Positions 43,763-63,999 of a DNA stretch of 64,000 nt are shown in pieces. The notes beneath the pieces are model-generated. The model did not search any database, was not told where the DNA came from, and was given only the letters and a program-made list of their open reading frames with translations. How positions within the stretch are numbered: the first letter of the stretch is position 1; each line of letters opens with the position of its first letter. Location: positions 3,620,001-3,684,000 of the forward strand of contig NZ_CP051428.1 in NCBI RefSeq assembly GCF_012676905.1, in the 5' to 3' direction. The position numbers were made by a program, and so were the translations under genes. Origin of the DNA: Paenibacillus albicereus. GTDB taxonomy: Bacteria > Bacillota > Bacilli > Paenibacillales > Paenibacillaceae.

Positions 43763-43899
43763 CGCCTGGACGGGCCGCCTCGCCGCCGCCTTCCGCCAGC
43801 GCTCTTGACCCGCCGCGCCGGCTCCCGCAGCCCCCTCGGCCGACAGGCATGGCGCTAGGCGCGAGACTGCGTTTCGGTTTCGCCGCGCGGAAGCTTTTG

Positions 43900-43908
43900 T
43901 GATACAAT
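43900..43908 (+). promoter_or_regulatory. Extended -10 promoter element for ytpI
   Basis: TGA-TACAAT (43900-43908) is an extended -10; no good -35 at 17-18 nt. It lies about 100 bp before the ytpI ATG. Confidence 0.35.
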
Positions 43909-44006
43909 GGCGCAAGGCGAAATGGCTATGGCCGTCCTCTGGCGGCGATGCAAGTTTCGTTCCAAACCCCGGGCTGCCGCCCGTCCAAAGGAGAAATCTC
44001 GGCTCT

Positions 44007-44336
44007 ATGAACGACTCCGTCGCCTGGCTGCAATGGGTGCTCATTGCAGGCATCGTCCTCAGCTGCACGCTGTCGGTGCTGAACAGCTTCCGCTCGCGCC
44101 GCTCCAAGGACGCGAACCTCAAGATCCTGTACGCCGCGCAGATGAACATCAGCATGGGCTGCATGCTCATCCTGATCGCCCTCATCCAGATGTTCCTGTA
44201 CGAGGGGTCCACGATCCGCGTCATCGTCGGCGCCGTGTTCATGCTGCTCGGCCTGTTCAACATCTTCGCCGGGCTGCGCAACCGCAGCATCATCCGCGGC
44301 GTCATCGCCCGCGCCGCTCAAGGCAAGTCCCGCTGA
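44007..44336 (+). CDS. ytpI: YtpI-family membrane protein
   Basis: A 109-aa protein with three helices: WLQWVLIAGIVLSCTLSVLN, NISMGCMLILIALIQMFLY and VIVGAVFMLLGLFNIFAGLR, and the basic loop RSRRSKDANLK typical of YtpI (about 100 aa in B. subtilis). Function unknown. The start at 44007 has AAAGGAG upstream at a long spacing (13 nt); the frame is open further up but without support. In Bacillus ytpI sits by ytoI and ytrI; here nrnA is absent on one side and a 6.8-kb accessory block on the other. Confidence 0.85.
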   Translation: MNDSVAWLQWVLIAGIVLSCTLSVLNSFRSRRSKDANLKILYAAQMNISMGCMLILIALIQMFLYEGSTIRVIVGAVFMLLGLFNIFAGLRNRSIIRGVIARAAQGKSR

Positions 44337-44388: not shown

Positions 44389-44551
44389 CCAATCGCTTTT
44401 CAAGCGCTTTTTCCCCCTCCCGATTTTTGATATTCGCCCTCCAATCGTCCTCCGGATAGCCTGAAAGAGTCATGTCTCTTTTGCTGCTTGGCTCTATACT
44501 GATCCAGTCAACGCGGAATTCATGACATTGAGCCAGGGGGAATCGCCACAA

Positions 44552-45952
44552 ATGAGCACGAAGCTTGAAAACGCAGCGCCGGAGACGAAGGCTCGGCAAA
44601 GAGGCCTGCTGCCGGCGCTCTATCAAAGCGTATGGAGGTGGCACTTTTACGCAGGTGTTATTTTCGCGCCGTTCCTGATCCTCCTCGCCGTCAGCGGAGG
44701 AGCCTATCTGTTCAAGCCGCAGATCGAAGGCCAGCTGTACAAGGACCTGCTGACGGTCCGGGAAGTGGGCCAGGCCTGGATGTCTCCGGAAGCCTTGACG
44801 GCGGCCGTCCGCAAGGAGAACCCGAATCTCGCCATCCAGTCGCTGACGCTCCCGGACGACGCCCGGTCGACGGTCAAGATGAGCGTCGTCCAGGACGGGG
44901 TGCCGACTACGCTCTACGCGGACCCGTATACCGGCAAGATCGCCGGGACGATGGATTCGGACAAAACCGTTTCGGCCGTCTTCAAAAAGCTTCACAGCCA
45001 GCTGCTGCTGCCCGGAACGCTGCCCAACCGCATCGTCGAGCTGGCCGCCTGCTGGGGACTCGTGCTGACCGTCACCGGCCTGTACTTGTGGTGGCCGCGC
45101 GGACGCTTCAGCGTCTGGGGCACGCTGCTGCCTCGTCTCGGCAAGCCCGGCAACCGGCTGTTCTGGCGGGACCTTCATGCCGTGCCGGCGTTCTGGCTGT
45201 CGCTGCTCATTCTCGCCCTGATCCTGACGGGCCTGCCTTGGTCCGGCGTGCTCGGCGGCCAGATCGACAAGATCGCCAACGCTACGAACACGAACAACCC
45301 GCCCTACGCTTATTCGTTCATGGGAGCGCCGGAGCCGGTCACGCGCGCCAAGGACATCGCCGAGGACATCCCGTGGGCGGCGGAAAGCCTGCCCGTGCCG
45401 GCCTCCGCGCCCGGCGGCTACGTGCCGATCACGATCGATGAAGCGGCCGGCATCGCCGAGCGCCAGCAGGTGACGAGGCCGTATACGATTACGATGCCCC
45501 AAGGAGAAACGGGCGTCTACACGATCTCTACGGCAGACGCCAAGCCGTGGAACTCGGCGACGCTGCACGTCGATCCCTACAGCGGCGCCGTCCTGACCGA
45601 CGTCCGCTACGAGCAGTACGGCGCCATGGCCAAGCTCATTTCGATCGGCATCGCTTTCCACGAGGGCAAGCTGTTCGGACTGGCCAACCAGCTGCTCGGC
45701 CTGCTCGCCTGCCTCGGGCTGGTCCTGATCTCCGCCGGCTCGTACGTCATGTGGCGCAAGCGCGCTCCGGCCGGCAAGCTGGGGGCTCCGAACAAGCCCA
45801 AGGAGAAAAAAGCCGCCATCGGCGTCCTCCTCATCATGGCCGTGCTTGGCGTGCTCATGCCGCTTGTCGGATTGTCGCTGCTGGTCGTGCTGGCGCTGGA
45901 CGGCCTCGTTATCCGCCGCGTGCCGGCGCTGCGCCGCTGGTTCGCGGCCTGA
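44552..45952 (+). CDS. PepSY-associated membrane protein (PiuB-like)
   Basis: A 466-aa membrane protein of the PepSY-TM family, related to iron-regulated membrane proteins. N-terminal SVWRWHFYAGVIFAPFLILLAVSGGAYLF is the family hallmark (Trp-x-His helix). Further helices are at LAACWGLVLTVTGLYLWWP, AFWLSLLILALILTGLPW, LLGLLACLGLVLISAG and two near the C terminus. PepSY-like segments are TLYADPYTGKIAG and LHVDPYSGAVLTDVRY, each followed by a His in a helix (FKKLHSQLLL, IGIAFHEGKLFG). The start at 44552 has AGGGGGA. Operon with a YtkA/FixH lipoprotein (16-bp gap). Redox or metal handling is inferred, not shown. Confidence 0.86.
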   Translation: MSTKLENAAPETKARQRGLLPALYQSVWRWHFYAGVIFAPFLILLAVSGGAYLFKPQIEGQLYKDLLTVREVGQAWMSPEALTAAVRKENPNLAIQSLTLPDDARSTVKMSVVQDGVPTTLYADPYTGKIAGTMDSDKTVSAVFKKLHSQLLLPGTLPNRIVELAACWGLVLTVTGLYLWWPRGRFSVWGTLLPRLGKPGNRLFWRDLHAVPAFWLSLLILALILTGLPWSGVLGGQIDKIANATNTNNPPYAYSFMGAPEPVTRAKDIAEDIPWAAESLPVPASAPGGYVPITIDEAAGIAERQQVTRPYTITMPQGETGVYTISTADAKPWNSATLHVDPYSGAVLTDVRYEQYGAMAKLISIGIAFHEGKLFGLANQLLGLLACLGLVLISAGSYVMWRKRAPAGKLGAPNKPKEKKAAIGVLLIMAVLGVLMPLVGLSLLVVLALDGLVIRRVPALRRWFAA

Positions 45953-45968: not shown

Positions 45969-46454
45969 ATGAAACGCAATCGGATCGCTCTTGCCGCCGG
46001 CACGCTGCTGGCCGGCGCATCGCTGCTGCTCGCCGGCTGTCAGGCGGACACCTCCGGCCTGGACGACAAGGGCTTCAAGCCTCACCTGACCGTCGACCTC
46101 CAGCTGCCGAAGCAGCTGGAGCCGGGCCAGGAAGGCCGCTTTTCCATCGTTGTGAAAAAAGGCGGAGAGCCTTACGACGGCTTCTACCAGGCGCGCTTCC
46201 AGCTGTGGCCTGAGGACGGCTCGTCGCCTCCGGTAACCGTCCAGGCGGAGAAAGCCGCGCCCGGAACGTACGCCGTGACCCGGCCGCTCGGCGCGGAAGG
46301 CGTGTACCGAATCAAGTTCAACGGCATCTCGGCTGAGTACGAGATCATGCCGTCCAAGCGCTTCGCCATCGGCGCCCATGCCGTCGAGACGCTGGCCGAG
46401 ATGGAAAAGGCCGGGGCCGCTCCGGCCCTGCCTTCCCCGGGGCCCCATCACTGA
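45969..46454 (+). CDS. YtkA/FixH-type lipoprotein
   Basis: A 161-aa lipoprotein: KRNRIALAAGTLLAGASLLLAGC gives the lipobox LAGC, mature from about Cys 23. The following beta-sandwich domain (LQLPKQLEPGQEGRFSIVV, GEPYDGFYQARFQLW, APGTYAVTRPLGAEGVYRIKF) resembles YtkA-like/FixH domains. The C-terminal tail is Ala/Pro-rich and ends in His-His. GGGAGGA lies upstream of ATG 45969. Last gene of the two-gene operon; the terminator is 46476-46515. It faces the nosDLYF-tlpA operon. Confidence 0.83.
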   Translation: MKRNRIALAAGTLLAGASLLLAGCQADTSGLDDKGFKPHLTVDLQLPKQLEPGQEGRFSIVVKKGGEPYDGFYQARFQLWPEDGSSPPVTVQAEKAAPGTYAVTRPLGAEGVYRIKFNGISAEYEIMPSKRFAIGAHAVETLAEMEKAGAAPALPSPGPHH

Positions 46455-46769: not shown

Positions 46770-47423
46770 CTACGCAGCCGCAGCCAGCGCAGCCAGCACC
46801 TCGTCCGCGCTCGCATACTCGCCCTGGACGATGCGCTCGATCCGGCCGTCCGGCCCGATGACGAACGAGGCCGGCAGCGCCCGCACGCGGAACGCGCCCG
46901 CCGCCTCGCCCGCGGCGTCGGAGGCGAGCGGCATCGCGATGCCTGCCGCCTCGGCGAACTCCGTCATCGTCGCGCGGCTGTCGCCGACGTTGATGACGAG
47001 CAGCGCCCCGCTGCCGTCCGGCAGCTTCGCCAGCCGGGCCGCAGCCTCGTCGAGGCGCGGCAGCTCGCGCTTGCAGGGCTCGCACCAGCTCGCCCAAAAA
47101 TGCACGAGCACCGGCTCGCCCTGATAATCGGCGAGCCGCAGCCGCGTCCCGGTGCCCGCCAGCGCCGCCTCGACCTGCGGCGCCGGCTCGCCGACCGCGA
47201 TCCGGCCGTCGGCCGCTTGGGGAGCGCCGCCGAGCAGCAGCCAGCAGGCGGTCGCGACCGCTCCCGCCGCGAGGAGCAAGCTCAGCCAAGTTCCCGGCCG
47301 ACGGAGCCGACGGCCGATCCCGCCGGACCTTCCGATCGCTTCAGTCTGAGCGGTCCGGTCGTCGCCAGCCCCTTCAGACCTGGGCCCGGCTTCCCGGCGG
47401 CTGTCCTCCGGCGATGGGCTCAC
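46770..47423 (-). CDS. TlpA/ResA-like thiol-disulfide oxidoreductase, membrane-anchored
   Basis: An extracytoplasmic thioredoxin-fold protein. A Ser/Arg-rich start is followed by one anchor helix (TWLSLLLAAGAVATACWLLLG, about 45-65). The thioredoxin domain has VGEPAPQVEAALAG, LADYQGEPVLVHFWASWCEPCKREL (CxxC = CEPC), VINVGDSRATMTEFAEAAGI, and the cis-Pro loop VRALPASFVIGPDGRI. The start is a GTG at 47423 that overlaps the nosF stop (GTGA) and has GGGGGAGG upstream; no ATG exists before the domain. 217 aa. Last gene of the nos-type operon, probably reducing the Cys pairs of NosL or another apo-protein. Confidence 0.85.
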   Translation of the reverse strand: MSPSPEDSRREAGPRSEGAGDDRTAQTEAIGRSGGIGRRLRRPGTWLSLLLAAGAVATACWLLLGGAPQAADGRIAVGEPAPQVEAALAGTGTRLRLADYQGEPVLVHFWASWCEPCKRELPRLDEAAARLAKLPDGSGALLVINVGDSRATMTEFAEAAGIAMPLASDAAGEAAGAFRVRALPASFVIGPDGRIERIVQGEYASADEVLAALAAAA

Positions 47424-48184
47424 GTCCTCCCCCGTCCCGCCGGGTCCTGCGCTGCGCCGGAACCGCGGCTGTCGGTGAAGGCCGCGTGCAGCCCGCCGAC
47501 GCCGTACTGCTCCAGCAGCTCGGCGACCGTGCCTTGACGGACGGCCTCGCCGCCGCGCAGGAAGACGACCTCGTCCGCGCTCGCTTCGGCGACAGGCAGC
47601 TGATGCGTGGAGTACAGCACCGAGTGGCCCTCCGAGCGGAGCTTGCGCACGAGCTCGACGAACGAGTCCATCCAGTACGGATCGAGCCCGTTCGTCGGCT
47701 CGTCGAGCACGAGCAGCGGCGGCTTCGCCAGCATCGCCTGGGCGAACAGGAGCCGCTGCCGCATGCCTTTGGAGAAGGCCGTCACCTTGCGGTCGCGCAC
47801 GTCCGCCAGCCCGACCTCCTCCAGCGCCTCTTCGGTGCGGCGCTTGGACAGCCCCCGCAGCGATGCCCAGAATCGCAGCGTCTCCCAAGCGGTCAGGCCG
47901 CGGGAAAACGTATAGTCGTCCGGCATGTAGCCGAGCTTGTCCGCATAGGCGCGCCGATCGTGCTGCCAGCGCAGCCCGTCCACCTCCACATGGCCGGACG
48001 TCGGCTGCAGCAGCCCCATGACGAGGCGCAGCAGCGTGCTCTTGCCCGCGCCGTTGCCGCCGCACAGCGCCAGCACGCGGCCCGGTCCGAGCTCCAGCGA
48101 GATGTTCTGCAGGAGCGTCTGGCCCTTGATCGTCTTGCCGACCTGCTCGATCCGCAGCAGCGGCTTCGCTGCATCATCAGCCAT
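47420..48184 (-). CDS. nosF: ABC transporter ATP-binding protein, NosF-type
   Basis: ATPase of a NosFY-type ABC complex that powers copper delivery. Walker A LCGGNGAGKSTLLRLVMG, Q-loop near MPDDYTFSRGLTAWE, signature SKGMRQRLLFAQAML (SKGMRQR for SGGQQ), Walker B LLVLDEPTNGLDPYW and switch STHQLPVAE. NosF-specific order is by context: nosY follows upstream with 8-bp overlap, then nosL and nosD. Length 254 aa. The C-terminal 30 residues are unrelated and Ser/Gly-rich. Confidence 0.85.
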   Translation of the reverse strand: MADDAAKPLLRIEQVGKTIKGQTLLQNISLELGPGRVLALCGGNGAGKSTLLRLVMGLLQPTSGHVEVDGLRWQHDRRAYADKLGYMPDDYTFSRGLTAWETLRFWASLRGLSKRRTEEALEEVGLADVRDRKVTAFSKGMRQRLLFAQAMLAKPPLLVLDEPTNGLDPYWMDSFVELVRKLRSEGHSVLYSTHQLPVAEASADEVVFLRGGEAVRQGTVAELLEQYGVGGLHAAFTDSRGSGAAQDPAGRGRT

Positions 48185-48995
48185 GTCGCCGCCCCCTTTC
48201 CCAAGCCCAGACCGCGATGCCGCCCGCTCCGGCGATCCAAGCGACGCAGATGCCGGCGAAGACCAGCGGTCCCCAGCCGCCTGACATCACCTCGACCCAG
48301 CTGTAGTAGTCCGGCCCGAGAATCGAGCCGCCGCCGAGCCGGATGACGACGAACAGCCGCACGAGCTCCGCCGGATTGAACAGCGTCAGCGCGGTCAGCG
48401 CCGGCTTGATCCATAGGTACGGCATGTAGCCGAGCGTCGCGATGAGCAGCGTCGGCCACCCGATGACGGTGAAGAACCAGAAGGCGACCGCATACGTCAG
48501 CGCTTGCCAGCGGTTCGCCGCCACGGTGCCGATCAGCAGCGCGGCGGCCAGGTACAGGAGGACGAGCAGCAGCGAGAAGGTCAGGAACAACAGCAGCGTC
48601 CGCAGGTCGAAGCCGCCGCCCGCAAGCGCTCCCGCGACGCCGCTCGCGCCGAAGGCGAACGCGACGATCGAGCCGAGCACGAGCGTCAGCCCGGCATATT
48701 TGCCGGCGATGAAGCTGGAGGTGCGCAGCGGATAGACGGCGAGCAGCTGCCAGCTGCCCTCCTCCTTCTCCGCTGTGAGCGAGAAGCTGCCGATGAGCAG
48801 CGTCATGAGCGGCAGCAGGTACAGGATGAGGCTGAGCATCGAGCCCGTCGTGCTCGTGTAGCCGCCGCCGGGGCTTTGCGCCCCGATCAGCAGCAGCAGC
48901 AGCGAAAAGACGGTGAACAGCACGAGGAACGAGTAGGACCAAGGGTTGCGGAAGCCGAGCTTGATCTCCCTCCGGGCGACATGGGCCGCATTCAT
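48177..48995 (-). CDS. nosY: ABC transporter permease, NosY-type
   Basis: Membrane partner of NosF; a 272-aa protein with six predicted helices: WSYSFLVLFTVFSLLLLLIG near the start, then LSLILYLLPLMTLLIGSFSLT, LVLGSIVAFAFGASG, LLFLTFSLLLVLLYLAAALLIG, AVAFWFFTVIGWPTLLIA and a C-terminal WGPLVFAGICVAWIAGAGG. EKEEGSWQLLAVYPLRTSSFIAGK is the conserved ABC-2 cytoplasmic loop. Ends overlapping nosF by 8 bp and starts 3 bp after nosL. Confidence 0.83.
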   Translation of the reverse strand: MNAAHVARREIKLGFRNPWSYSFLVLFTVFSLLLLLIGAQSPGGGYTSTTGSMLSLILYLLPLMTLLIGSFSLTAEKEEGSWQLLAVYPLRTSSFIAGKYAGLTLVLGSIVAFAFGASGVAGALAGGGFDLRTLLLFLTFSLLLVLLYLAAALLIGTVAANRWQALTYAVAFWFFTVIGWPTLLIATLGYMPYLWIKPALTALTLFNPAELVRLFVVIRLGGGSILGPDYYSWVEVMSGGWGPLVFAGICVAWIAGAGGIAVWAWERGRRHG

Positions 48996-48998
48996 GGC

Positions 48999-49646
48999 TT
49001 AGTGGGCGGAGTCCGCATTAGATGCGTTCTCGCTCATGTCCATGCCGTCGCCTTGGCCCGCGTTGTCGCTCATGTCCATGCCGTCGCCATGGCCCGCGTT
49101 GTCGCTCATGTCCATGCCGCCGTCTTGGCTCTCGCCCGCGTCGCCTTCGTGGGAATGCGCATCGCCCATCATCATGTCCTTGTTCTGCTCCCAGCTGTGG
49201 CTGCCGAGCTCGGCCGCCGTCAGCAGCTGCCCCTTGCCCTGCTCCTGGGCGAACGCCTCGGCCGCGGCCTTGTCCTTGAAGCTGACGACCCCGTAAGCCA
49301 TCGGCGTCTTGAAGTCCTTGTCGTAGACATAGTAAGCGTCGCCGTAAGCGATCCACTCCTTGTCGTTGTAGTCGCGGACGTACTCGCCGCCGATTTTCGA
49401 GCTGGCGTTTTTCGCTTTCCAATCGTTCATGCAGCCGATGTCGTCGAACTTGAACGTCTTGCCCTCGGTCGTCGTCAGCTGCACGGCGAAGGCGTCGTCC
49501 TGGACGGTCATGTTGCAGATCGCGCACTTGTCGACGGACTCGTCGATCGGCACCGGCCCGTATTCCTTGGTGCCGCAAGCCGCCAGCACCAGCATCGTCA
49601 GGAGCGCGGCCAACGGCAGCAGCCCCCTCAGGTATCGTTTGCTCAT
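48999..49646 (-). CDS. nosL: NosL-family copper lipoprotein with C-terminal Met/Asp repeats
   Basis: Copper-binding lipoprotein that in denitrifiers hands copper to nitrous oxide reductase maturation. Signal with lipobox LVLAAC; the NosL site is DKCAICNMTVQDD (C-x2-C-N-M), then FKFDDIGCMNDW, YVRDYNDKEWIAYGDAYYVYD and GVVSFKDKAAAEAFAQEQGKG as in the family. After about residue 157 a non-family tail holds MMMGDAHSHEGD and three 12-residue repeats GMDMSDNAGxGD, likely an extra copper-binding segment. 215 aa against about 170-180 usual. Overlaps nosD by 4 bp (ATGA). Confidence 0.88.
   Translation of the reverse strand: MSKRYLRGLLPLAALLTMLVLAACGTKEYGPVPIDESVDKCAICNMTVQDDAFAVQLTTTEGKTFKFDDIGCMNDWKAKNASSKIGGEYVRDYNDKEWIAYGDAYYVYDKDFKTPMAYGVVSFKDKAAAEAFAQEQGKGQLLTAAELGSHSWEQNKDMMMGDAHSHEGDAGESQDGGMDMSDNAGHGDGMDMSDNAGQGDGMDMSENASNADSAH
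49030..49137. repeat. 36-bp tandem repeat in nosL
   Basis: Two near-identical 36-bp units (49030-49065, 49066-49101; one substitution) and a diverged third (49102-49137). They encode the 12-residue GMDMSDNAGxGD repeat. Confidence 0.9.
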
Positions 49647-50986
49647 TTTTTTCTAACCCCCACTCGTATAATGGTCGTCGCAGCCAGCAGCAGCACGGCT
49701 CCGGCCGCCGCAGTCGCCCCTGGCGAGCCCGTCTCGGACGCCGCGGAGCCCGCGATGGCCGGCGGCTCCATGAGCGGAGCCCGGTCGCGGGTCCAGCCCG
49801 CGGCGTCGGCGGCCATGAGGCTTTCGAGAAACTTCATGCCCGGCGACTGGAAAAACAGCTGGAACGCCGGCGTTTCCTTCGTCAGCCGCTGGAAGAACGG
49901 GTTCATCGGATAGGCCAGATCGCTCTTGCCGTCTCCGCTCGGGTCCAAGCCCTGGAACGCATCCCAATAGTTGCCCTCGATCCGGTTGCCCGCGCTGCGG
50001 TCGGCCATCGTCTCGATGACGTTGGAGACGAAGCGGTTGCCGGCCAGCTCGTTGTCCGCCGAATCGAGCAGCTGGATGCCGACGAAGTTGTAGGAAACGT
50101 CGTTGCCCGTCCACGAGTTGTTCGCGGAGCGCTCGATGTAGAGGCCGACGCGGTTGCCGACGAGCTCGTTGCCGGTCACCCGCATGTCCTCGACCTCATA
50201 GAACAGCATGCCCTGCGAGTTGACGCTGCCCTGCTGGAGCTTGAAGGCGTTGCCCGCGATCGTCCCGCCGCGCGAGACCATCGCCATGATGCCGGTGACG
50301 TTGCGGGAGCCGCGGTTGCCCTCCACGTCGGTGTTCTTGGCATACATCAGATGCACGCCGTAGCGGGAAAAGTCCACCACATTGCCCCGGATGGCCGTGT
50401 CGTTGCTGCCCTCCAGGTAGATGCCGTCGAACATGCTGCTGACGCGGTTGTTCTCGATCGTGTTGCCGTGCGACCGGTACAGGTCGATGCCGTTGCGCCG
50501 CTCCGAGGCGCGCGCGGAGCGGCCGAGCAGCTCCGGCGTCGCCTCGACCGCGTTGCCGCGGATGACCGTGCCGTCGGATTCCTGCAGCTGGATGCCGATC
50601 GTCCTCGTCACGATGCGCAGCTCCTCCACCCGGGCGCCGTCGCCTTCGACGAGCACCGCCGCCGCCTCGCCACCGCTGTCCTTGACGATCGACAGCCCGC
50701 TGAGCGAGACGGAGTCCGCGGCAACGGCGACCGCGGGCTTGTCCGGCGCGGCGCTGCGGAGCGTGACGCCCTTGCCTTTGACCGCAAGCGGCTTGTCGAT
50801 GACGAGCTCCTCGTCATACGTGCCGGGCGGCAGCTCCACCTCGCTTCCCGGCGAAGCCTCGTCGAGCAGCTTCTGCAGCGTCCCGGCCTGGGCGGCCTGG
50901 GCGGCCGGAACCGGTCCTGACGCCGCCGCTCCGCCGAGCGCGAGGACGGCGGCCAGCGCCAGGCGATACGCCATGTTTCCGATCAT
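49643..50986 (-). CDS. nosD: NosD-family periplasmic/extracytoplasmic beta-helix protein
   Basis: Carbohydrate-binding-like parallel beta-helix protein that with NosFY forms the copper-transfer ABC complex. Signal peptide (AYRLALAAVLALGGAAASG), then CASH-type repeats: LQKLLDEASPGSEVELPPGTY, NGIDLYRSHGNTIENNRVSSM, GIYLEGSNDTAIRGNVVD, FSRYGVHLMYAKNTDVEGN, GLYIERSANNSWTGNDVSYN and GIQLLDSADNELAGNRF. The family end YWDAFQGLDPSGDGKSDLAYPMNPFFQRL is clear. A C-terminal helix (AAAGAVLLLAATTIIRV) anchors it, as often in Gram-positives. AAGGAGGAG precedes ATG 50986. 447 aa, first gene of the operon. Confidence 0.9.
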   Translation of the reverse strand: MIGNMAYRLALAAVLALGGAAASGPVPAAQAAQAGTLQKLLDEASPGSEVELPPGTYDEELVIDKPLAVKGKGVTLRSAAPDKPAVAVAADSVSLSGLSIVKDSGGEAAAVLVEGDGARVEELRIVTRTIGIQLQESDGTVIRGNAVEATPELLGRSARASERRNGIDLYRSHGNTIENNRVSSMFDGIYLEGSNDTAIRGNVVDFSRYGVHLMYAKNTDVEGNRGSRNVTGIMAMVSRGGTIAGNAFKLQQGSVNSQGMLFYEVEDMRVTGNELVGNRVGLYIERSANNSWTGNDVSYNFVGIQLLDSADNELAGNRFVSNVIETMADRSAGNRIEGNYWDAFQGLDPSGDGKSDLAYPMNPFFQRLTKETPAFQLFFQSPGMKFLESLMAADAAGWTRDRAPLMEPPAIAGSAASETGSPGATAAAGAVLLLAATTIIRVGVRKK

Positions 50987-51135: not shown

Positions 51136-52482
51136 CTAGCCGTCCATCAGCTGCATCGACAGGATCGCCTTGGCGGCGACGCCCCCGGCATCCGACAGCT
51201 GGATCTCGAGCTTGGCGTTCTTGCGGCTCAGCTCCAGCACGGCCGGCTCCAGCACGAGTTCGGCGTCGATCGCGACCGGACGGAAAAAGTAGGTCGTCAC
51301 GCTTTCGACCATATGGTCGCCTCGCCCGCTCTCCCGCACCATGCGCCGCGCCGCTTGCAGCATGAGCGTGGAGAGCACGCCTTCGGAAACGGTGCCCGGC
51401 ATGCCGGACATCTGGGCGGCGGCGACGCCGGCGTAGCGGAAGCCCTTGGCTGCGCCGCTCGGCTTGAAGCCGGCCAGGATGAGCTCGTCGAACGTCTCGC
51501 CGGAGTCGCCCTGGCGGCCGGTGATGCGCATCGCCTCCTGCACCTCCTGCCGCGTGATGACGCCGAGCAGCCGCCGATGCCGGTCGACGACCGGCAGCAG
51601 GTCGATGCCCTCGGCCGCCATCGTATGCGCGGCCGACGTCACCGTGATGTTGGGCGCGGCGGTGATCGGATGCCGGGTCATGAGCCGCTCCACCAGCGCG
51701 TCCGGCTCGGAGCCGGCGGCGTCCTTGGCGGTCATCATGCCGCTGACGCGCCCGCGCTCGTCGAGCACGGGGAAGCGGAAGCTCCCGGTCAGCCCGGCCA
51801 GCCGGTGGAAATCGGCCGCCGTATCGCCATGCTTCAGCACGTCGGCAGGACGGGCGAAGCTCATGATGTCTTCGATGAGGACGATCTTCTGCTTGATGAG
51901 GCGGTCATACATGGCGCGGTTGATCATCGAGGCGACGGTGAACGTATCATGGCGCGAGACAATGATCGGCAGCCCCCGCTCGTCCGCGAGCCGCTTGACC
52001 TCGGCGCTCGTATCGAAGCCGCCGGTGATGAGCACGCCCGCCCCCTGCTCGAGCGCGAGCCGGTGCGCCTCCTCGCGGTTGCCGACGATGAGCAGGCTGT
52101 CTTCATTAATATAGCGGAGCATCGCGTCGAGCTCCATCGCGCCGATGACGAACTTGTGCAGCGTCCGCTGCAAGCCGCCGGAGCCGCCGAGCAGCTGGCC
52201 CTCGACGATGTCGGCGACGTCGCCGAACGTCAGCCCTTCCAGCGAGCCGCGCCGGGAGCGGTGCACGCGGACGGTGCCGATTCTTTTTTTGGTCGCGACG
52301 ATGCCGAGCTCCTCGGCCTCCTTGATCGCCTTGTACGCGGTGCCTTCGCTGACGTCCAGCTCGCGGGCGATGCCGCGCACGGAGATGCGCGTGCCCGGCT
52401 CCAGCGCCTCGATGTGCCGGATCAGCTGCTCGTGCTTGGTCATCGTCTCGAGCGATGACGGGGGGTGGGTATCGGGTGGCAT
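51136..52482 (-). CDS. ytoI: YtoI-like protein: HTH, DRTGG, CBS pair and hot-dog domain
   Basis: A 448-aa multidomain regulator-like protein. Order: winged helix (GTRISVRGIARELDVSEGTAYKAIKEAEE, about 30-60), DRTGG-like domain (FVIGAMELDAMLRYI ... GVLITGGFDTSAEVKRLADERGLPIIV), two CBS motifs (FRFPVLDERGRVSGMMTAKDAAG and LMTRHPITAAPNITVTS ... DLLPVVDRHRRLLGVITRQEVQEA) and a C-terminal thioesterase-like hot-dog domain (YFFRPVAIDAELVLEP). This is the architecture of B. subtilis YtoI (about 439 aa). GGAAGGA supports ATG 52482; family alignment would suggest MTKHEQ at 52443. Ligand unknown, likely nucleotide. Confidence 0.87.
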   Translation of the reverse strand: MPPDTHPPSSLETMTKHEQLIRHIEALEPGTRISVRGIARELDVSEGTAYKAIKEAEELGIVATKKRIGTVRVHRSRRGSLEGLTFGDVADIVEGQLLGGSGGLQRTLHKFVIGAMELDAMLRYINEDSLLIVGNREEAHRLALEQGAGVLITGGFDTSAEVKRLADERGLPIIVSRHDTFTVASMINRAMYDRLIKQKIVLIEDIMSFARPADVLKHGDTAADFHRLAGLTGSFRFPVLDERGRVSGMMTAKDAAGSEPDALVERLMTRHPITAAPNITVTSAAHTMAAEGIDLLPVVDRHRRLLGVITRQEVQEAMRITGRQGDSGETFDELILAGFKPSGAAKGFRYAGVAAAQMSGMPGTVSEGVLSTLMLQAARRMVRESGRGDHMVESVTTYFFRPVAIDAELVLEPAVLELSRKNAKLEIQLSDAGGVAAKAILSMQLMDG

Positions 52483-55881: not shown

Positions 55882-58800
55882 CTAGTCGCGGGCGGCCGCC
55901 ATGACGGCGGCGTACGCCCAGTGGCTCGGCGGCAGGTCCGCGTAGCGCGGCTCCGCCGGCGATCCTTGGATCGTGCCGGCCATCCGGTTCAGCAGCGTGA
56001 CCGCCTGCGCCCGCGTGAGCGGGCTGTTCGGGCGGAAGCTGCCGTCCGGGAAGCCTTGGATGAGGCCGGCGTCCGACAGGGCCGCGATGAAGCCGGCCGC
56101 CCAGTGCTTGCGCGCATCCTTCTGCTTCGGCATGCCGTCGCCGTCGACGTCGAGCTTGAGCGCCCGCGCGGCGATGACGGCGAACTCCGCGCGCGTCAGG
56201 CCGCGATCGCCGCCGAACGTTCCGTCCGGATACCCGCCGACGATGCCGGCGGAGGCGAAGAAGGCGACGAGCGGCTCGCTGCGGCCCGACTTGTCCGGGA
56301 AGGCGTTGTAAAGCTCTCCCTCCTCGCGGTCAAGCAGCGGCGCGAGCGCCTCGATCAGCTCGTAGCGGCTCATCGCGGCGTCCGGCTTGAACGTGCCGTC
56401 GTCGTAGCCGGAAGCGTAGCGCACCGTCGGCGCATCCTTCCGCAGGCTGTACAGAGCGGCGCCGACGTCGAACGTGTACGTCACGACGCGCTTGTCGCCT
56501 TCGACGAGCACTTTTACCGTCATGGAGCGCTGGAGCACCAGCTCGCCGGTGAAGCGAGGGCTGGACTCCGTCGGGTCGCTGCCGTCGGTCGTATAGCGGA
56601 TCCACTTGCCCTCCGGAGCGGTCAGGCGCAGGATGCTGCCGCGCGGCGCGCGCACGGCGGAAGGCTGCTCGCCGCCTAGAGCGGGCTTGCCGATGTTCGA
56701 CGCGACCGCAGGAGGAGGTTCGGGCGTCGGGGACGGGCTCGGCATGGCCGGGAAGAAGAACCCTCCTCCGCCGGATGGGGACGGCGTCGGGGACGGGGAC
56801 GGCGGCGGCAGAAGCTTCCACTCGCCGCTCATCGCCGGGCTATGCTCCTTGCCGAGCACGACAGCGATCGCCTTCAGCGTCGTCGTCTGCTTGAGCCCGA
56901 TCGGCGACGAGTAGACGGCCGAGCGCTCGCTCGGCTCGCTGCCGTCGAGCGTGTAGCGGATCGTTGCTCCCGGTTCGGCGGACAGGACGATCTCGACCTG
57001 TTCCTTGAATTCCCGATCGCCCGACACGACGCGCGGTGCGGCGGCCGCTTCCGGCCAGCGCAGCTCCGGCGCGTTCAGGACGAGCGAGCGGGAGAAGCCG
57101 CCCAGCTCGGCCTTCAGCTCGGCGCTGCCGCCGGCCAGCATGCGGCCGGAGCCGTCCTGGAGCCGGACGAGCGAGGCATCGGCGCTCCACAGGAGGCCGT
57201 CCGCCCGGCTGAGGCCGAAGCCTGCCGTCAGGCGATTGATCGTATCGCCGTCCGCCGGCATGACGGCTGCGGCGGCGAGGCGGGCAAGCCCGCTGTCCGA
57301 AGGCGCCGGGTAGAACCCGGCCGCCGCGCGCCATACGCTGCCGGACAGGCCGGACGGAAGCGCGCCGGACGTCAGCGTGGCGCCGTCCAGTCCGCCCTCC
57401 GTGCGGATCGAGCCTGCGGCATCGTAGTAAGCGACGCCGCGCTTGACCATCGGCTTGGCGAACGAGGCTCCGGCGATGCTGCCGCCGTCCGCGAGCTGGC
57501 CGGCGATGCCGCCGAAGTAGCTGCGGGCCGGCACGAGCGCGCCGCCAATCGAGGCGACCGCTTCGCCGCCTGCTACGGCGCGCTCGATCGCGCCCGCGCT
57601 ATGGCCGGCGATGCCGCCCGCCCATGCGCGCTCCGCGCCGTCCGCCGTCGTCCGGCCGGACGCCAGCGTGTCGGCGATGCGGCCGTCGTTGCGGCCGGCG
57701 GCGCCGCCGGCTGCGGCTTCGGAGCCGCTTGCCGCGGCGTTCGCCGAGCTGTACGAGCGCTCGATGGCGCCGCCTTCGGCGTTGGTGCCGACGAGGCCGC
57801 CGGCGCTTGCTTCGCTCCGCGCGAGGCCGGCCGAGCCGGACTCGGCGATGAGCCCGCGGTTGACGCCCGCGATGAGGCCTGCGCTCGCGCGGCCGCTGAC
57901 GGTGCCGTCCGCGGCCGCGCCGCGGATCTCGCCGCCGGCTGCGTTGACAGCGGCGAGGAGGCCGGCATGGCGGCCGGCTTTCACGCTCGCGCCGGCAAGC
58001 TTGATGTCGGAGAGGAGGCCGCGGTTGACGAGCACGAGCGCCGCATCGCCGGAGCCGCCGTCGGCGCGAAGGCCGATCAGCCGGTGGCCGTCGCCGGCGA
58101 GCTCGCCGTCGAACTGCTGCAGCGGCGTCCACGCGAATGCCGACAAGTCGATGTCGGCCGCGAGGCGCAGCTTGTCGCCCGAGCCCAGCGGCGAAGCCGT
58201 CGCCGAGCGGTCGAACAGCTTGAAGTAGGCGGCGCCGGTGTCATTGCTCAGCCGGACGTATCCATCGAGCTGCGCGCGGCTGCCGATGGCGATCTCTTCG
58301 CCTGCGACAAGCCGCAGGATCGACGGATCGTACGTGGCCGACCAGCTGCCCGACGTCCGCGGATCGCGAGCCTCGACCGCCGAGGCCGAAGCAGCCGCGC
58401 CTGCGTTGCGGCCGACGGCGGCGCCGCTGCCGCTGTACGCGGACGAGGCGATGCGGCCGTCGCGGAAGTTGTAGCCGACCAGCGCGCCTTTGTACGTGTC
58501 CGTGCCCTTGGCGCTGACATTCAGCTCCATCGCGGACGCGTACGCCTGCTCAATCCGGCCGTCATTGTAGCCGGCGAAGCCGCCGGTGTACGAGCGGGTC
58601 GTGCCGGTCAGGCCGGTCGTGGAGACTCGTTCCTGAAGCGCATGGGAGCGGAGCGCGCTGCCGCTGCGCTCGACGGCGGCCGCGAAGCCGCCCGTGCGCG
58701 TATCCTGGCCCGTATTGGCTACCGGACCGGCCGCGTAGCTGTCCTCGACCGCGAAGCGGTTGATGGAGCCGGCGAAGCCGCCCGCGTAGGAGCCGCGCTT

Positions 58801-61800
58801 GCCGGCAGCCGTCACCGCGCCGTCCGCGTAGGCGTAGCGGATCGAGCCGCTGCCGGCGCCGTTCTCGCCGAGCTGGCCGGCGAAGCCGCCGGCATACAGC
58901 GTCGTGTCGATGTTGGCGTCCGTCACGTCGACCGGGGTCGACGCGGAGCTGCGGGTGACGGCCAGGCGATCGCCTTGGCCGATCGCGCCGCCGACGTAAG
59001 CCGCCGGCAGACTCTCACCGATCGTCTGCGCCGTGCCGACGGCGATGCGCGCTCCGTCCTCGGCTGCGGCGAAGCTGTAATGGATCTCGCCGTCCAGCGC
59101 CCGGCCGACGAGGCCGCCGACGCGGTAGACGCCGCTGCCGGAGGCGTCGATGCCTCCGAACGCCTCGGCATGAACGAGGATGCCGCTGCTGAAGCCGGCG
59201 ATGCCGCCTGCGTCCAGCTCGCCCGCCGAGCCGGCGGCGATGCCGGCGCGGCTCTTCGATTCATAGATGGAAGCGCCTTGCAGCGCGCCGACGAGGCCGC
59301 CCGCTTGCAGCGCGGACTTGCCGCCGGCGGCTGTCAGCGCCAGCTTGCCTTCATAGCTCGCTTGATACAGGCCGCGATAAAGCGGGTAGAAGCCGCCGAA
59401 GCGGAGCTCCGCGTCGCGGTCCGACGCGCTCAGCTCGCCGGCGATGCCGCCAGCGGCCAGCTTGCCGGCCGAACCTGCGTCCAGCGCGGCGGAGATCGGT
59501 CCGGACGCCTGCGCGTCCTGGATCGTCGTCTCCGCCGCGCGGCCGACGATGCCGCCGGCATAGACGGCTTCCCCGCGCGCGTCGAGCGACGCGAGGGCGG
59601 CGCGCACGCCATGCATCGCGACGGCGTCCGCGCGGCCGATCAAGCCGCCCACCGCCGGTTGGAGCGAGCCGGCCGGAGCGGTCACGGCCAGCCCTTGGAC
59701 CGCCGCGCCTTCCACGTCCCACTCGGCGATGCCTCGGCCCTCTTTCTCGCCGATCAGCCCGCCGACGGAGCCGCCGCCAGTTACGCCGAGAGCGGATGGA
59801 TCCGCATCGGCATGGAGGCCGCTCAAGCGGTTGCCGGCTTCCGAACGGCCGATCAGGCCGCCGGCCGCCGCATCGCCGGCAGCGGCGCGCACGCCGCTGC
59901 CTTCCCCGAAGGCGACCGCCAGCTCCGACGCCGCTCCGTCCGCATAGCGTCCGAACAGGCCGCCCGCGAACGAGCCGGCTCCGGAAGCCTCGACGACGAG
60001 CCGCTTCAAATCCGCCTTCAGCTCCGAGGAGCTGCCGCTCTGGCGTCCCGCCAGGCCGCCCGCCGAAGCGCCGTCGCCGCTCGCGGAGATGCGGCTCGCC
60101 GCTTCGCCCGAAGCGGCGAAGCTCCAGCTGCCGGCCGCGATCGCGGAGACATTCTCGCCGGCGATGCCGCCAGCCGCTCCGCCCGCCGCCGCGCTCTCGA
60201 TCCGGCCGCCGGCGAGCTCGGCCCGCAGGCCGTCCGCCTCGCCCTCGTTGCGGCCGACGATGCCGCCGGCGACGGCGCCCGAGACGGCCGCTCCCTCTGG
60301 CAGCTTGAGCCGGATGTCCGCGATGCGGCCGTAATTGAGGCCGGCCAGCGCGCCCGCATAGGCCGAGCCCCGGACTTCCTTCGGCTCCAGCGCAAGGCCG
60401 GTTGCCGAAGCTTTCGCGCCGATGACGCCGAACAGCCCTCCGTTCGGTACCTCGCCGCTGACGGCGTAGCCGTCGATCAGATGGCCGCCGCCGATCAGGT
60501 CGCCCTGGAACGCCAGCGTCTCGCTGACGCCGATCGGGCTCCACTGGGCGGACTGCACGTGGATCGGTCCTTTGATCTCGATCGTCCGGCCCTCGAAGCT
60601 GAACGGCTCGACGCCGACCAGCGTGCCGTTGACGATGCCTGCCAGTCCCGCCAGCTCGGCTTCCGTGCCGATCTGGAACAGCGTCGCGTCCTTGTCGCGC
60701 AAGTACCAGTTCAGGTTGGCGTTGACGCTGCCGCCCGTGCCGCCGTCCCCGCCGCCGCTGCTTGCCGCGCGGTTCGCTTCCGGATACTGGTATTGGGCTC
60801 CCAGAGAGCCGTATTTCCAGGCGCTTGCGAAATCCCAGCCCGACAGCGCCGGAAACTCGCTGCGGTCGGCAAGGGTCGACGACAGGATCGTGCTCAGCCG
60901 TCCGAGCACGCTCAGCCAGCGGTACTCGCCGTCCGCGAAGTCGGGCAGGTCCTTGTTCAGGTTGAGCTTCTCGTCCTTGATGTAGTAGCTCTTGTACAGC
61001 AGCTCCTTGCTCGTATTGTCGTAGCGGCCGGCGAAGCCGCCGGCCAGCGCCGTCCCGCTCGCCGTCACCTCGGCGGCGGAATAGCTCGTCGAGATGCGGC
61101 CGGAAGCGATTCGCCCGGCGAAGCCGCCGGCGTACGAGCCGCTGCCCGTCGCCGTTACGCTCTTGGCGCTGTAGGCATTCTTGACTGAGCCTCCCGCGAG
61201 CTCGCCAAGCAGGCCGCCGGCCTGCGCGTAAGCGCCGGAAGCCGTCACCTTGGAGGCGGCGTAGGACTGCTCGACCGTGCCGCTGCTGCGGCCGGACAGG
61301 CCGCCGAGGAACACCGGCTGGCTGGCCGTGCCGAAGGCTTTGCTCGTCAGATCAAGGTCCGTATAGGAAGAGAGGATGCTGCCGGCGTTGTCGCCGACGA
61401 GGCCTCCGGCCAGCGTTCCCTGGCCCTCGATCGTCAGATTGGCGTTCGTGTACGTGTAGTAGAGCGTGCCCGTCGCCGCGTTGCGGCCGACAAAGCCGCC
61501 GACGACGGCGTTCGCGCCTTTGGAGGAGACCGGCAGCTTGTCCGTCACGCTGACGTTGGCGATCAGGCTCGCGTTCTCCCCGACGAGGCCGCCGACCGTC
61601 ATGCCCGGCGCGAGCGCCTGCACGGAGCCGGACACGCGGCTGTTGGCGATGACGCCGGCCGAGCTGGCCGGTGCGGCCGCCGGATCGCTCGCGCGCGCCT
61701 CGATCCGCGCCGCCATGCCGCCGGCAAGGCTGCCGGCTGCGGAGGCGTTGACCTTCAGCTGCATGCCGGTGAATACGGTATCGACGATCGCCGCCGGCTC

Positions 61801-63999
61801 GCCGCCCTTGAGCGTACCAACGAGGCCGCCCGCCATCGTATCCGGACCGCTCAGCAGCAGGCTCGCGCCGCTGCCGACGAGGCCGCGCAGCGTCGTCTCG
61901 ACGCTGCTGCCGGCGATGCCGCCGACCTTCGCTTGCGAAGCGTCCGCCGAGGCGGTCAAGAGCAGGTTCTGCACGTTCACCCGCTGCAGGTCGCCCTCGA
62001 TCCGGCTGCTCTCCGCGCGGCCGGCCACGCCGCCGGCCTCGATGTCCGCGGCGCTCGCGGTTAACGCCACATAGTTCGGTGCTTCCGCGAGCGCCGCCGG
62101 ACGGATGAGATCGGCATGGACCGCGTAGCCGGCGATGCCGCCGATGCGCGCGCCCGCCGCCGTCGCCGCTGCCGTCGGCTGCTCTCCGCCTTCGAGCTTG
62201 GAGTCGGTCAGCGCGGCGCGGCTGTCTGCCGTGCCTTCCAGCCGTCCGACGAGTCCGCCCGCTTCCGCGCCGGTGCCGCCTGCGGCGAGCTCGACGCTCC
62301 GCGCCGAGGCCCCGAGGATCGAGCCGCTGCTGAGGCCTGCGGCTCCGCCGAGCCGCGCGTCCGCGCCGGTCGAGCGGATGACGACCGCCTCGGCCGCTCC
62401 GCCGCTCAGGCTGCCGGCGTTCTCGCCGGCGATGCCGCCGATGCGGGCCCGGGCTCCGGACGAGTCGACCTCGAAGCCGGACACGAGCAGGCTCGCCTGC
62501 GCCGTGCCGCCCTGCAGGCCGATGCCGCCGCCAAGCGCGGCGTCAGCAGCTTGAGCCTCCAGCGAGACCGCGCTCACGCGCACCGGCTGCGCGGACGTGC
62601 CGAGCACGGCCTTACCGTCGATCCGGCCCGCCGCGCCGCCGAACGCGACTCCCGTCATGCCGGCAGGCAAAGCGGCGGATACCCGGTCGACCCGGCTGCC
62701 GACCACCGTCAGCTCGCCGATGCCGCGTCCGATCAGGCCGCCGGCCGCGAAGTCGTCGCGTCCGCCCGCAGGCGAGGCGATCTCGGTCTCGAAACGGATG
62801 CTCGCCGAATCGGACGCAGACGGATCGCCGGCTCGGGAGTCGGAAATCATGCCCGAGGCGGAGCCGGCGATGCCGCCGGCCGCGCTGCCGGAGCGCTGCG
62901 CCCGCAGCGTCAGCCAAGCCGCCGATGAATTGGAAATCATGCCGTCGGAATGGCCGGCGATGCCGCCCAGCTCGCCTTCGGCGACGATCGCGAGCGGCTG
63001 CGCTGCGGTTCCGCCAGCTGCGGAGGCGCTGATCTCGGCTCCCGCCGCCAGATAGCCGGCGATGCCGCCGGCATAGACCGCGCTCTCGCCGTCGGTGCCG
63101 GCCGTCAGGCCGCTCTTGAACGACGCATGGCGGATCAGGCCGCCGCCGCTGTAGCCGACGATGCCGCCGGCGTATACGGCGCCCGTTCCGCGCGCCTCGA
63201 CGGCTGCCGTCGAGACATACGCAGCCGGCTTCTCGTCGGTCAGGCTGACGCCTTGCGCCGCATAGCCGAACAGGCCTCCAATGTAGACGTCCTTGCCCTC
63301 GGCGCGGATCGGAATCGCCTGCTCGAACCCTTTGGCCCAAGTGAGCGCAGGACCGACGAAGCCGGCGATCGTGCCGGAGTAAACACGCTCTCCGCCCGCA
63401 TGATGGATAGCGGCCGTCTGGCGCAGCGAGACGGATGCGTCCGGCAGGACGCCGCCGATCGAGCCCGCCAGCCCGCCGGCATAGCTCTCTTGCGCATCCG
63501 GCGCGGTCACGCGCACTTCCCCGCTGTTGGCCGTATCGGCCGAGAACGTCACGGACGAGCCGTACTGTCCGGCGAGGCCGCCCGCATGCGCGAGCCGGCC
63601 TCCCGTGACCGTGACGGCGCCGCCGTTGCGGATCGGCGTGCTCTCGCCCTGCATGTCGAGCGAACCGGCCGTCAGGCCGGTCAGGCCGCCGGCGTACAGC
63701 TCGCTCTGGGCGCCGCCGCTCGCGGAGACCGCCCCGTCATTGGCCGCCTTTTTGAGCGTCAAGCCGCCCTCCGACACATGTCCGACCAGTCCGCCGGCGT
63801 AGGTGGAGCCCGTCACGGTGACAGGCGCCTCGTTGAGCGCATTGGACACCTGACCCGAGCCCGAGCCGACGATGCCGCCCGCATAGGCGAAGCCGGAGCC
63901 GCTCTCGGCCTCGATCGCGATCTCGTTCTCGATGTCATAGACGATGCTGTAGCCGGTCATCTTGCCGACGGCCGAGCCGGCGTAGACGTTGCCCGCCAC
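55882..63999 (-). CDS. Giant GLUG-repeat surface protein with SLH domains, 5' end outside the window
   Basis: At least 2,705 residues; the frame is open at the right edge, so the N terminus, presumably a signal peptide, is missing. Most is a repetitive beta-solenoid of GLUG-type repeats (AGGLVG / AGGIAG followed by Gly, Ser, Ala-rich turns). It falls into three modules: up to about 1,080; from LNWYLRDKDATLFQIGTEAE (about 1,093); and from YDPSILRLVAGEE (about 1,890). Each new module restarts with a LAGLAG/ LDGYVRLSN block and a GHLIDGY/GHRLIGL line. Then come two chitobiase-C-terminal-like domains (IRYTLDGSEPSERSAVYSSPI, WIRYTTDGSDPTESSPRF), joined by a Pro/Ser/Thr linker, and three SLH domains (about 2,521-2,705: GYDDGTFKP, GYPDGTFGGDRGLTRAE, GFPDGSFRPNSPLTRAQ). 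It should be held to cell-wall polymers and act as an adhesin or surface enzyme scaffold. Confidence 0.92.
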   Translation of the reverse strand: MAGNVYAGSAVGKMTGYSIVYDIENEIAIEAESGSGFAYAGGIVGSGSGQVSNALNEAPVTVTGSTYAGGLVGHVSEGGLTLKKAANDGAVSASGGAQSELYAGGLTGLTAGSLDMQGESTPIRNGGAVTVTGGRLAHAGGLAGQYGSSVTFSADTANSGEVRVTAPDAQESYAGGLAGSIGGVLPDASVSLRQTAAIHHAGGERVYSGTIAGFVGPALTWAKGFEQAIPIRAEGKDVYIGGLFGYAAQGVSLTDEKPAAYVSTAAVEARGTGAVYAGGIVGYSGGGLIRHASFKSGLTAGTDGESAVYAGGIAGYLAAGAEISASAAGGTAAQPLAIVAEGELGGIAGHSDGMISNSSAAWLTLRAQRSGSAAGGIAGSASGMISDSRAGDPSASDSASIRFETEIASPAGGRDDFAAGGLIGRGIGELTVVGSRVDRVSAALPAGMTGVAFGGAAGRIDGKAVLGTSAQPVRVSAVSLEAQAADAALGGGIGLQGGTAQASLLVSGFEVDSSGARARIGGIAGENAGSLSGGAAEAVVIRSTGADARLGGAAGLSSGSILGASARSVELAAGGTGAEAGGLVGRLEGTADSRAALTDSKLEGGEQPTAAATAAGARIGGIAGYAVHADLIRPAALAEAPNYVALTASAADIEAGGVAGRAESSRIEGDLQRVNVQNLLLTASADASQAKVGGIAGSSVETTLRGLVGSGASLLLSGPDTMAGGLVGTLKGGEPAAIVDTVFTGMQLKVNASAAGSLAGGMAARIEARASDPAAAPASSAGVIANSRVSGSVQALAPGMTVGGLVGENASLIANVSVTDKLPVSSKGANAVVGGFVGRNAATGTLYYTYTNANLTIEGQGTLAGGLVGDNAGSILSSYTDLDLTSKAFGTASQPVFLGGLSGRSSGTVEQSYAASKVTASGAYAQAGGLLGELAGGSVKNAYSAKSVTATGSGSYAGGFAGRIASGRISTSYSAAEVTASGTALAGGFAGRYDNTSKELLYKSYYIKDEKLNLNKDLPDFADGEYRWLSVLGRLSTILSSTLADRSEFPALSGWDFASAWKYGSLGAQYQYPEANRAASSGGGDGGTGGSVNANLNWYLRDKDATLFQIGTEAELAGLAGIVNGTLVGVEPFSFEGRTIEIKGPIHVQSAQWSPIGVSETLAFQGDLIGGGHLIDGYAVSGEVPNGGLFGVIGAKASATGLALEPKEVRGSAYAGALAGLNYGRIADIRLKLPEGAAVSGAVAGGIVGRNEGEADGLRAELAGGRIESAAAGGAAGGIAGENVSAIAAGSWSFAASGEAASRISASGDGASAGGLAGRQSGSSSELKADLKRLVVEASGAGSFAGGLFGRYADGAASELAVAFGEGSGVRAAAGDAAAGGLIGRSEAGNRLSGLHADADPSALGVTGGGSVGGLIGEKEGRGIAEWDVEGAAVQGLAVTAPAGSLQPAVGGLIGRADAVAMHGVRAALASLDARGEAVYAGGIVGRAAETTIQDAQASGPISAALDAGSAGKLAAGGIAGELSASDRDAELRFGGFYPLYRGLYQASYEGKLALTAAGGKSALQAGGLVGALQGASIYESKSRAGIAAGSAGELDAGGIAGFSSGILVHAEAFGGIDASGSGVYRVGGLVGRALDGEIHYSFAAAEDGARIAVGTAQTIGESLPAAYVGGAIGQGDRLAVTRSSASTPVDVTDANIDTTLYAGGFAGQLGENGAGSGSIRYAYADGAVTAAGKRGSYAGGFAGSINRFAVEDSYAAGPVANTGQDTRTGGFAAAVERSGSALRSHALQERVSTTGLTGTTRSYTGGFAGYNDGRIEQAYASAMELNVSAKGTDTYKGALVGYNFRDGRIASSAYSGSGAAVGRNAGAAASASAVEARDPRTSGSWSATYDPSILRLVAGEEIAIGSRAQLDGYVRLSNDTGAAYFKLFDRSATASPLGSGDKLRLAADIDLSAFAWTPLQQFDGELAGDGHRLIGLRADGGSGDAALVLVNRGLLSDIKLAGASVKAGRHAGLLAAVNAAGGEIRGAAADGTVSGRASAGLIAGVNRGLIAESGSAGLARSEASAGGLVGTNAEGGAIERSYSSANAAASGSEAAAGGAAGRNDGRIADTLASGRTTADGAERAWAGGIAGHSAGAIERAVAGGEAVASIGGALVPARSYFGGIAGQLADGGSIAGASFAKPMVKRGVAYYDAAGSIRTEGGLDGATLTSGALPSGLSGSVWRAAAGFYPAPSDSGLARLAAAAVMPADGDTINRLTAGFGLSRADGLLWSADASLVRLQDGSGRMLAGGSAELKAELGGFSRSLVLNAPELRWPEAAAAPRVVSGDREFKEQVEIVLSAEPGATIRYTLDGSEPSERSAVYSSPIGLKQTTTLKAIAVVLGKEHSPAMSGEWKLLPPPSPSPTPSPSGGGGFFFPAMPSPSPTPEPPPAVASNIGKPALGGEQPSAVRAPRGSILRLTAPEGKWIRYTTDGSDPTESSPRFTGELVLQRSMTVKVLVEGDKRVVTYTFDVGAALYSLRKDAPTVRYASGYDDGTFKPDAAMSRYELIEALAPLLDREEGELYNAFPDKSGRSEPLVAFFASAGIVGGYPDGTFGGDRGLTRAEFAVIAARALKLDVDGDGMPKQKDARKHWAAGFIAALSDAGLIQGFPDGSFRPNSPLTRAQAVTLLNRMAGTIQGSPAEPRYADLPPSHWAYAAVMAAARD

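Follow-up and report, generated by a model that had tools for sequence, protein, structure and literature searches.

The usual view of NosDFY and NosL is that they serve the maturation of nitrous oxide (N2O) reductase, NosZ. A 64,000-nucleotide stretch of the Paenibacillus albicereus chromosome (positions 3,620,001-3,684,000; hereafter the window) encoded all four of these proteins and a TlpA-type thiol reductase but no NosZ, which raises the question of which copper enzyme the set serves. The genome was assembled as a single contig of 5.17 Mb and was 99.98% complete. Our answer, held with moderate confidence, is that the five genes form a nosZ-free copper-delivery module, NosDLYF-TlpA, and that its most likely client is CtaC, subunit II of the caa3 cytochrome oxidase.

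The five genes followed one another on the minus strand in the order nosD-nosL-nosY-nosF-tlpA (window 46770-50986), and all their junctions were overlaps of 4 or 8 base pairs (bp) or a 3-bp gap. Namely, nosD overlapped nosL by 4 bp, nosY began 3 bp after nosL and overlapped nosF by 8 bp, and tlpA started with a GTG at 47423, overlapping nosF by 4 bp across the nosF stop. Coordinates and family models agreed with the initial annotation on this arrangement. NosD scored 115 bits against PF05048 (cut-off 23.6), aligned over the whole length of TIGR04247 with 269 bits, under the 300-bit cut-off of that model, and matched the solved NosD 7o0y at E 6e-30; reading of its sequence showed a signal at the N-terminus and a hydrophobic segment at the C-terminus. 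NosL reached 55.6 bits against PF05573 (cut-off 24) and E 7e-4 against the solved NosL 7osf, and the scores of TlpA to ResA-like models were under their cut-offs. Among aligned relatives, NosD residues H212, M214, M234 and M236 were identical in 79/79, NosL residues C24, C41, C44 and M46 were kept in 99% of 78, with M116 also among the conserved positions, and both C114 and C117 of TlpA were present in 60/60. These residues are consistent with copper handling by the three proteins. A named relative, P. pasadenensis DSM 19293, had a NosD that was 87% identical. The initial annotation had also taken a Met-rich NosL tail to favour a general copper role. A Met/His-rich tail was found in 74 of 78 family NosL proteins, but the argument is weak and the tail is not diagnostic; 7osf, from an organism with nosZ, also aligned into a short Met/His tail, and several NosL clades unlinked to nosZ had none.

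The NosZ model TIGR04246 gave no match above cut-off in any of 197 genomes of the family (Paenibacillaceae), P. albicereus included, and a search of the P. albicereus genome at E 1e-20 returned nothing. The same model scored above cut-off in 21 of 299 genomes of the class (Bacilli), mostly at about 800-910 bits, a draw that served as positive control. The nos_propeller model had no match, but it had none in its control genomes either, and TIGR04246 was used in its place. Within the limits of this assembly, this rules out both a distant nosZ and one lost in an assembly gap, each of which the initial annotation had considered; the single contig had no gap. Its statement that the window itself held neither NosZ nor a c-type cytochrome stood: TIGR04246 was negative genome-wide, and no CXXCH motif occurred among the coding-like open reading frames picked in the window.

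Weak TIGR04246 matches were present in 137 of the 197 family genomes, the best at 56 bits and on the cupredoxin end of the model alone. At first sight they resembled CuA proteins, but those read comprised short CuA-type proteins, cupredoxins and NirK-like proteins (the last so classed by shared coordinates). Because of this mixture, and because the P. albicereus match lacked a CuA motif, they were not used as a CuA census. That match, at 32 bits among the matches listed, was a cupredoxin of 154 amino acids with a single-cysteine copper motif, at 4,111,369-4,111,833 of the chromosome (L131:8370-8834). Matches resembling it occurred in the seven NosD-bearing genomes of the genus, in one NosD-minus genome of another genus, and not in G078.

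At a census threshold of E 6.1e-58, which left out weaker beta-helix matches and the fragmentary NosD of genome G001, NosD was present in 81 of the 197 family genomes. NosL stood at all 81 NosD loci and NosY and NosF each at 80, so the gene set is not a matter of chance. A TlpA-like gene was found near nosD at 63 of the 81 loci by BLAST and at 64 by hidden Markov models, in 58 of these 64 directly behind nosF. The initial annotation had proposed comparing the surroundings of nosZ-free NosD homologues and had called the tlpA linkage fixed; the linkage proved real and wide but not fixed.

Across the class, NosD (E 1e-30 or better) occurred in 94 of the 299 genomes, 20 of which also had NosZ and 74 of which did not. 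We fetched 20 of the 21 nosZ loci (that of G386 was left out), 19 of which held NosD-NosY-NosF, and read 27 loci unlinked to nosZ: 23 from the 59 NosD-bearing nosZ-free genomes outside the family, and four of the six second modules of nosZ genomes. NosL was present at 27/27 unlinked loci versus 2/19 nosZ-linked ones. A scarcity of nosL in nosZ clusters of spore-forming Bacillota was previously noted for a few genomes, according to the accessible part of PMC11388526. Since 17 of the 19 nosZ-linked clusters with NosD (from the set L196-L215) lacked NosL, NosZ there must obtain its copper otherwise. Six nosZ genomes (G206, G208, G286, G344, G429 and G430) carried a second NosD unlinked to nosZ, and the second modules read in G206, G208, G286 and G430 were all full NosD-NosL-NosY-NosF sets.

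Trees were built from joined NosD, NosY and NosF sequences, to which the family contributed 22 of its 81 loci and the class 25 unlinked and 19 nosZ-linked ones; L237 and L243, which lacked NosF or NosY, were left out. The nosZ-linked rows formed one side of a branch with a support of 99 in the Shimodaira-Hasegawa-like approximate likelihood ratio test (SH-aLRT; 66 rows), and the same split had a support of 100/99 after five long-branch rows were removed (61 rows). A separate clade, the wide nosZ-free occurrence and the second unlinked modules in nosZ genomes therefore argue that the module is not a nos cluster minus nosZ. The nosZ-free NosDLYF forms a separate lineage, suggested to be an old sister of the nos maturation genes. 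With no distant nosZ, and a separate lineage rather than a nosZ loss, the initial suggestion that NosDFYL is used here for another cuproprotein gained support.

The neighbours of the module were counted from -5 to +9 kb around nosD at the 81 family loci, using models built from family sequences that may miss distant forms, and were compared with a non-random set of 20 neighbourhoods of cupredoxin-type genes from this family. A convergent-type YtkA was near nosD in 17/81 loci, a YtkA-like lipoprotein in 32/81 and either type in 43/81. The strict and the loose count (17 and 43) differed because the YtkA-like lipoprotein is matched weakly or not at all by Pfam; three members of its upstream cluster gave E 0.014, E 0.035 and no match against Pfam YtkA. 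PepSY proteins were found in 18/81, cytochrome c in 15/81 and Sco in 12/81 loci, while TlpA, YtkA, Sco, cytochrome c and PepSY were each absent from all 20 comparison loci. At the class level, TlpA, the YtkA-like protein and Sco were each present in 2/27 unlinked and 0/19 nosZ-linked loci, and locus L217, outside the family, had the order Sco-YtkA-NosD-NosL-NosY-NosF-TlpA. In a search of the whole P. albicereus genome, the sole match to PF13115 (YtkA) was the gene beside the nos operon. The recurrent neighbours TlpA, YtkA (CtaK) and Sco are assembly factors of the CuA site of cytochrome oxidase. Additionally, a membrane-anchored protein of about 100 amino acids was near nosD in 10/81 loci, with no Pfam match in the two tested.

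The genome of P. albicereus possessed an intact ctaC-ctaD-ctaE-ctaF-ctaG-DUF420 operon (ctaDEF named from sequence alone), and its CtaC had a CuA motif and a cytochrome c domain. The best match to COX2 (PF00116) was at 4e-12 or better in 174 of the 197 family genomes, at 1.4e-6 or worse in 22 and missing from one, the threshold for CtaC having been chosen after these two groups were apparent. We read the strong group as the CuA type and the weak one, tentatively, as the quinol-oxidase type. All 81 NosD-bearing family genomes fell in the CuA-type group and none of the remaining 23 had NosD (hypergeometric p-value 1.9e-6), a value that overstates the case because these 23 genomes came from only three genera (16, 6 and 1). 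Sco was present in 173 family genomes, and the 24 without it were those same 23 and one 75%-complete genome. Outside the family, COX2 matched at 1.6e-12 or better in 56 of the 59 NosD-bearing nosZ-free genomes, and G200, with only short CuA-type matches (4e-10), brought those with a CuA type to 57/59; 21 NosD-minus genomes there had strong (14), weak (3) or no (4) COX2 matches. The initial annotation had named cytochrome oxidases among the enzymes to look for, and of these the evidence favours caa3, short of proof.

A number of observations weigh against CtaC as the client. At sufficient copper, loss of NosL affects CuZ and not CuA of N2O reductase, according to the accessible part of PMC6530538. 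The module was missing from 93 of the 174 family genomes with CtaC, including G078 of the same genus, and about 2.6 Mb separated the operon from ctaC in P. albicereus. The 23 genomes without CtaC, from only three genera, represent few independent events, and two NosD-bearing genomes outside the family, G244 and G284, had no clear CuA subunit. Finally, besides CtaC at 1e-17, P. albicereus had a second, weaker COX2 match, and it also had a second weak TIGR04246 match.

In structural work, NosDFY is said to act as an ATP-gated relay. For the module of P. albicereus, NosL, a membrane-anchored Cu(I) lipoprotein, would gather copper outside the membrane and then dock on NosD, and NosFY, consuming ATP, would drive NosD through a cycle that passes the copper to the client. 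TlpA may keep NosL, Sco or the apo-CuA site in the reduced thiol form. Loading of CtaC would also involve YtkA (CtaK), encoded next to the operon, and Sco, encoded far from it, and would take place mainly under copper scarcity. We infer this handover from NosL/NosD to CtaC, with YtkA and Sco, by analogy with published roles of these proteins. In Bacillus subtilis, CtaK (YtkA) and Sco assemble the caa3 CuA site and copper rescues the mutants (PMC13344008, PMC9145763), as stated in the accessible parts of these papers. Both Sco and the CuA cysteines in the apo form of subunit II are substrates for reduction by TlpA, according to the same part of PMC9145763. Under copper limitation, loss of NosL leaves N2O reductase with neither of its centres, and the authors say that NosL may also supply CuA (PMC6530538, same part as above). 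A more far-reaching proposal, which we advance tentatively, is that NosDLYF, TlpA and YtkA form an ATP-driven machine devoted to loading the CuA site of caa3, widespread in the family and in other Bacilli, and that the version serving N2O reductase is one branch of an older copper-delivery system.

The module might instead load copper more generally and have a client that varies by lineage, a reading that we consider rather unlikely; some Bacilli would then use it for NirK or a CuA nitric oxide reductase, others for a ba3 or caa3 oxidase or for multicopper oxidases. NirK was suggested as the client of the nosZ-free nos clusters of Bacillus azotoformans (PMC3475470) and Parageobacillus (PMC13068155), according to the accessible parts of both papers. 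Although the NirK model had no match above cut-off in the 197 family genomes, there were 29 NirK-like matches at 194-217 bits, found in 19/81 NosD-bearing versus 10/116 NosD-minus genomes. The two NosD-bearing genomes without a clear CuA subunit would also fit a variable client, as would one f16/g34 genome in which some 14 kb separated the module from a ba3-type CuA subunit, a spacing that, judged by coordinates, was similar in ten genomes of the genus. This ba3 link was loose in the one genome followed, with unrelated-looking genes in between, and was not retained. On the other hand, P. albicereus had no NirK-sized match, the best being a 558-amino-acid frame at 83 bits that is probably a multicopper oxidase, and the model had no match at all in the NosD-bearing genus members G004, G023 and G047. 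Another copper enzyme, SodC, was missing from P. albicereus, from 7/7 NosD-bearing genomes of the genus and from 25 of the 40 NosD-bearing genomes tested (present in 15). The cbb3 oxidase was likewise rejected as a client, since CcoO was found in 0/197 family genomes and scored above cut-off in one control genome.

Some NosD loci had further copper-related neighbours: a copper-type P-ATPase beside L126 (5216-8596), and DsbD_2 and FixH/YtkA-like proteins with Sco (L087:3283-5122, L104:3200-5066). We take this arrangement to resemble cbb3 assembly genes, yet no family genome had CcoO.

Copper handling without any single enzyme, such as buffering or scavenging in the envelope, or support of CuB insertion or cytochrome c maturation via TlpA, appears decidedly unlikely. 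The copper ATPase or DsbD_2 proteins at some loci and the sub-threshold ResA-like scores of TlpA are in line with it. So are the two-component genes near nosD (LuxR-type regulators in 36/81 and HisKA_3 kinases in 21/81 loci), but these were found at the comparison loci too (4/20 and 2/20, respectively). Moreover, a need for CuB and for copper handling would also be expected in genomes that seem to have only a quinol-oxidase-type COX2 or none, and NosD was present in 0/23 of them. Descent from a denitrification cluster, with nosZ either lost or located at another place in the genome, would explain the shared gene names and families but is very improbable, given the lack of NosZ in a single-contig genome and in 197 family genomes, the retention of the genes across 81 genomes, the separate NosDYF clade, the additional unlinked NosD of six nosZ genomes and the presence of NosL, which nosZ-linked clusters mostly lack.

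In comparison to the NosDFY-NosL system of N2O reductase, the module proposed to load CtaC had the same four protein families, NosD and NosL that match its solved proteins, and a conserved CxxCxM motif and lipobox, but it lacked NosZ and contained an extra tlpA. From the nosZ-linked modules of Bacilli it was set apart by the well-supported branch (100/99) described above. The clusters of B. azotoformans and Parageobacillus thermoglucosidasius also contained nosD, nosL, nosY and nosF, or parts of this set, without nosZ, judging from the accessible text; the module described here differed in the company of TlpA and YtkA, and the NirK proposed by those authors was not found in P. albicereus as far as searched. 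Similar to the CuA-assembly set of the B. subtilis caa3 oxidase (Sco and CtaK, with CtaG and CtaM), P. albicereus had Sco, CtaG, a DUF420 protein of the CtaM type and, next to the nos operon, one YtkA, whereas NosDLYF and TlpA are no part of that set in the accessible portions of the published accounts. Among openly licensed papers, we found none that linked a nosZ-free NosDLYF to cytochrome oxidase.

If most NosD-bearing Bacilli (74 of the 94 sampled) use NosDFY and NosL for another enzyme, then the presence of nosD or nosL is an unreliable sign of N2O reduction, and CuA loading outside the B. subtilis pattern becomes testable. The module also offers a CuZ-free system for asking whether NosDFY moves copper or supplies sulfur.

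Table 1. Genes of the nosZ-free module and its neighbours in P. albicereus (window positions), with examples of a small protein near nosD at other loci (locus positions).
Feature	Position	Strand	Model or structure matched	Description
nosD	49643-50986	-	PF05048, TIGR04247, solved NosD 7o0y	beta-helix copper-family protein
nosL	48999-49646	-	PF05573, solved NosL 7osf	lipoprotein, LAAC lipobox, CxxCxM motif, Met/His-rich tail
nosY	48177-48995	-	PF12679 (ABC2_membrane_2), 65 bits	ABC-2 membrane subunit
nosF	47420-48184	-	PF00005 (ABC_tran), 122 bits	ABC ATPase
tlpA	46770-47423	-	PF00578 (AhpC-TSA), 83 bits	membrane-anchored thiol reductase, CEPC active site
ytkA (ctaK-like)	45969-46454	+	PF13115, 27 bits	lipoprotein, convergent with the operon
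PepSY_TM protein	44522-45952	+	PF03929, 222 bits	membrane protein, 16 bp upstream of ytkA
~100-amino-acid protein	L069:15000-15323, L055:4409-4705, L059:4062-4361, L074:8062-8433			membrane-anchored

A scan for promoters and terminators gave one plus-strand promoter-like site and nothing ahead of nosD. The operon and the ytkA pair were flanked by a YtpI-like gene (window 43899-44336) and a gene for a DRTGG-CBS-hotdog regulator resembling SpxR/YtoI (51136-52482), and housekeeping genes, one of which looked like dnaE, adjoined the operon region. Further along, a repetitive open frame of at least 2705 amino acids (55882-63999) reached the edge of the window, and its end resembled S-layer-homology repeats by eye.

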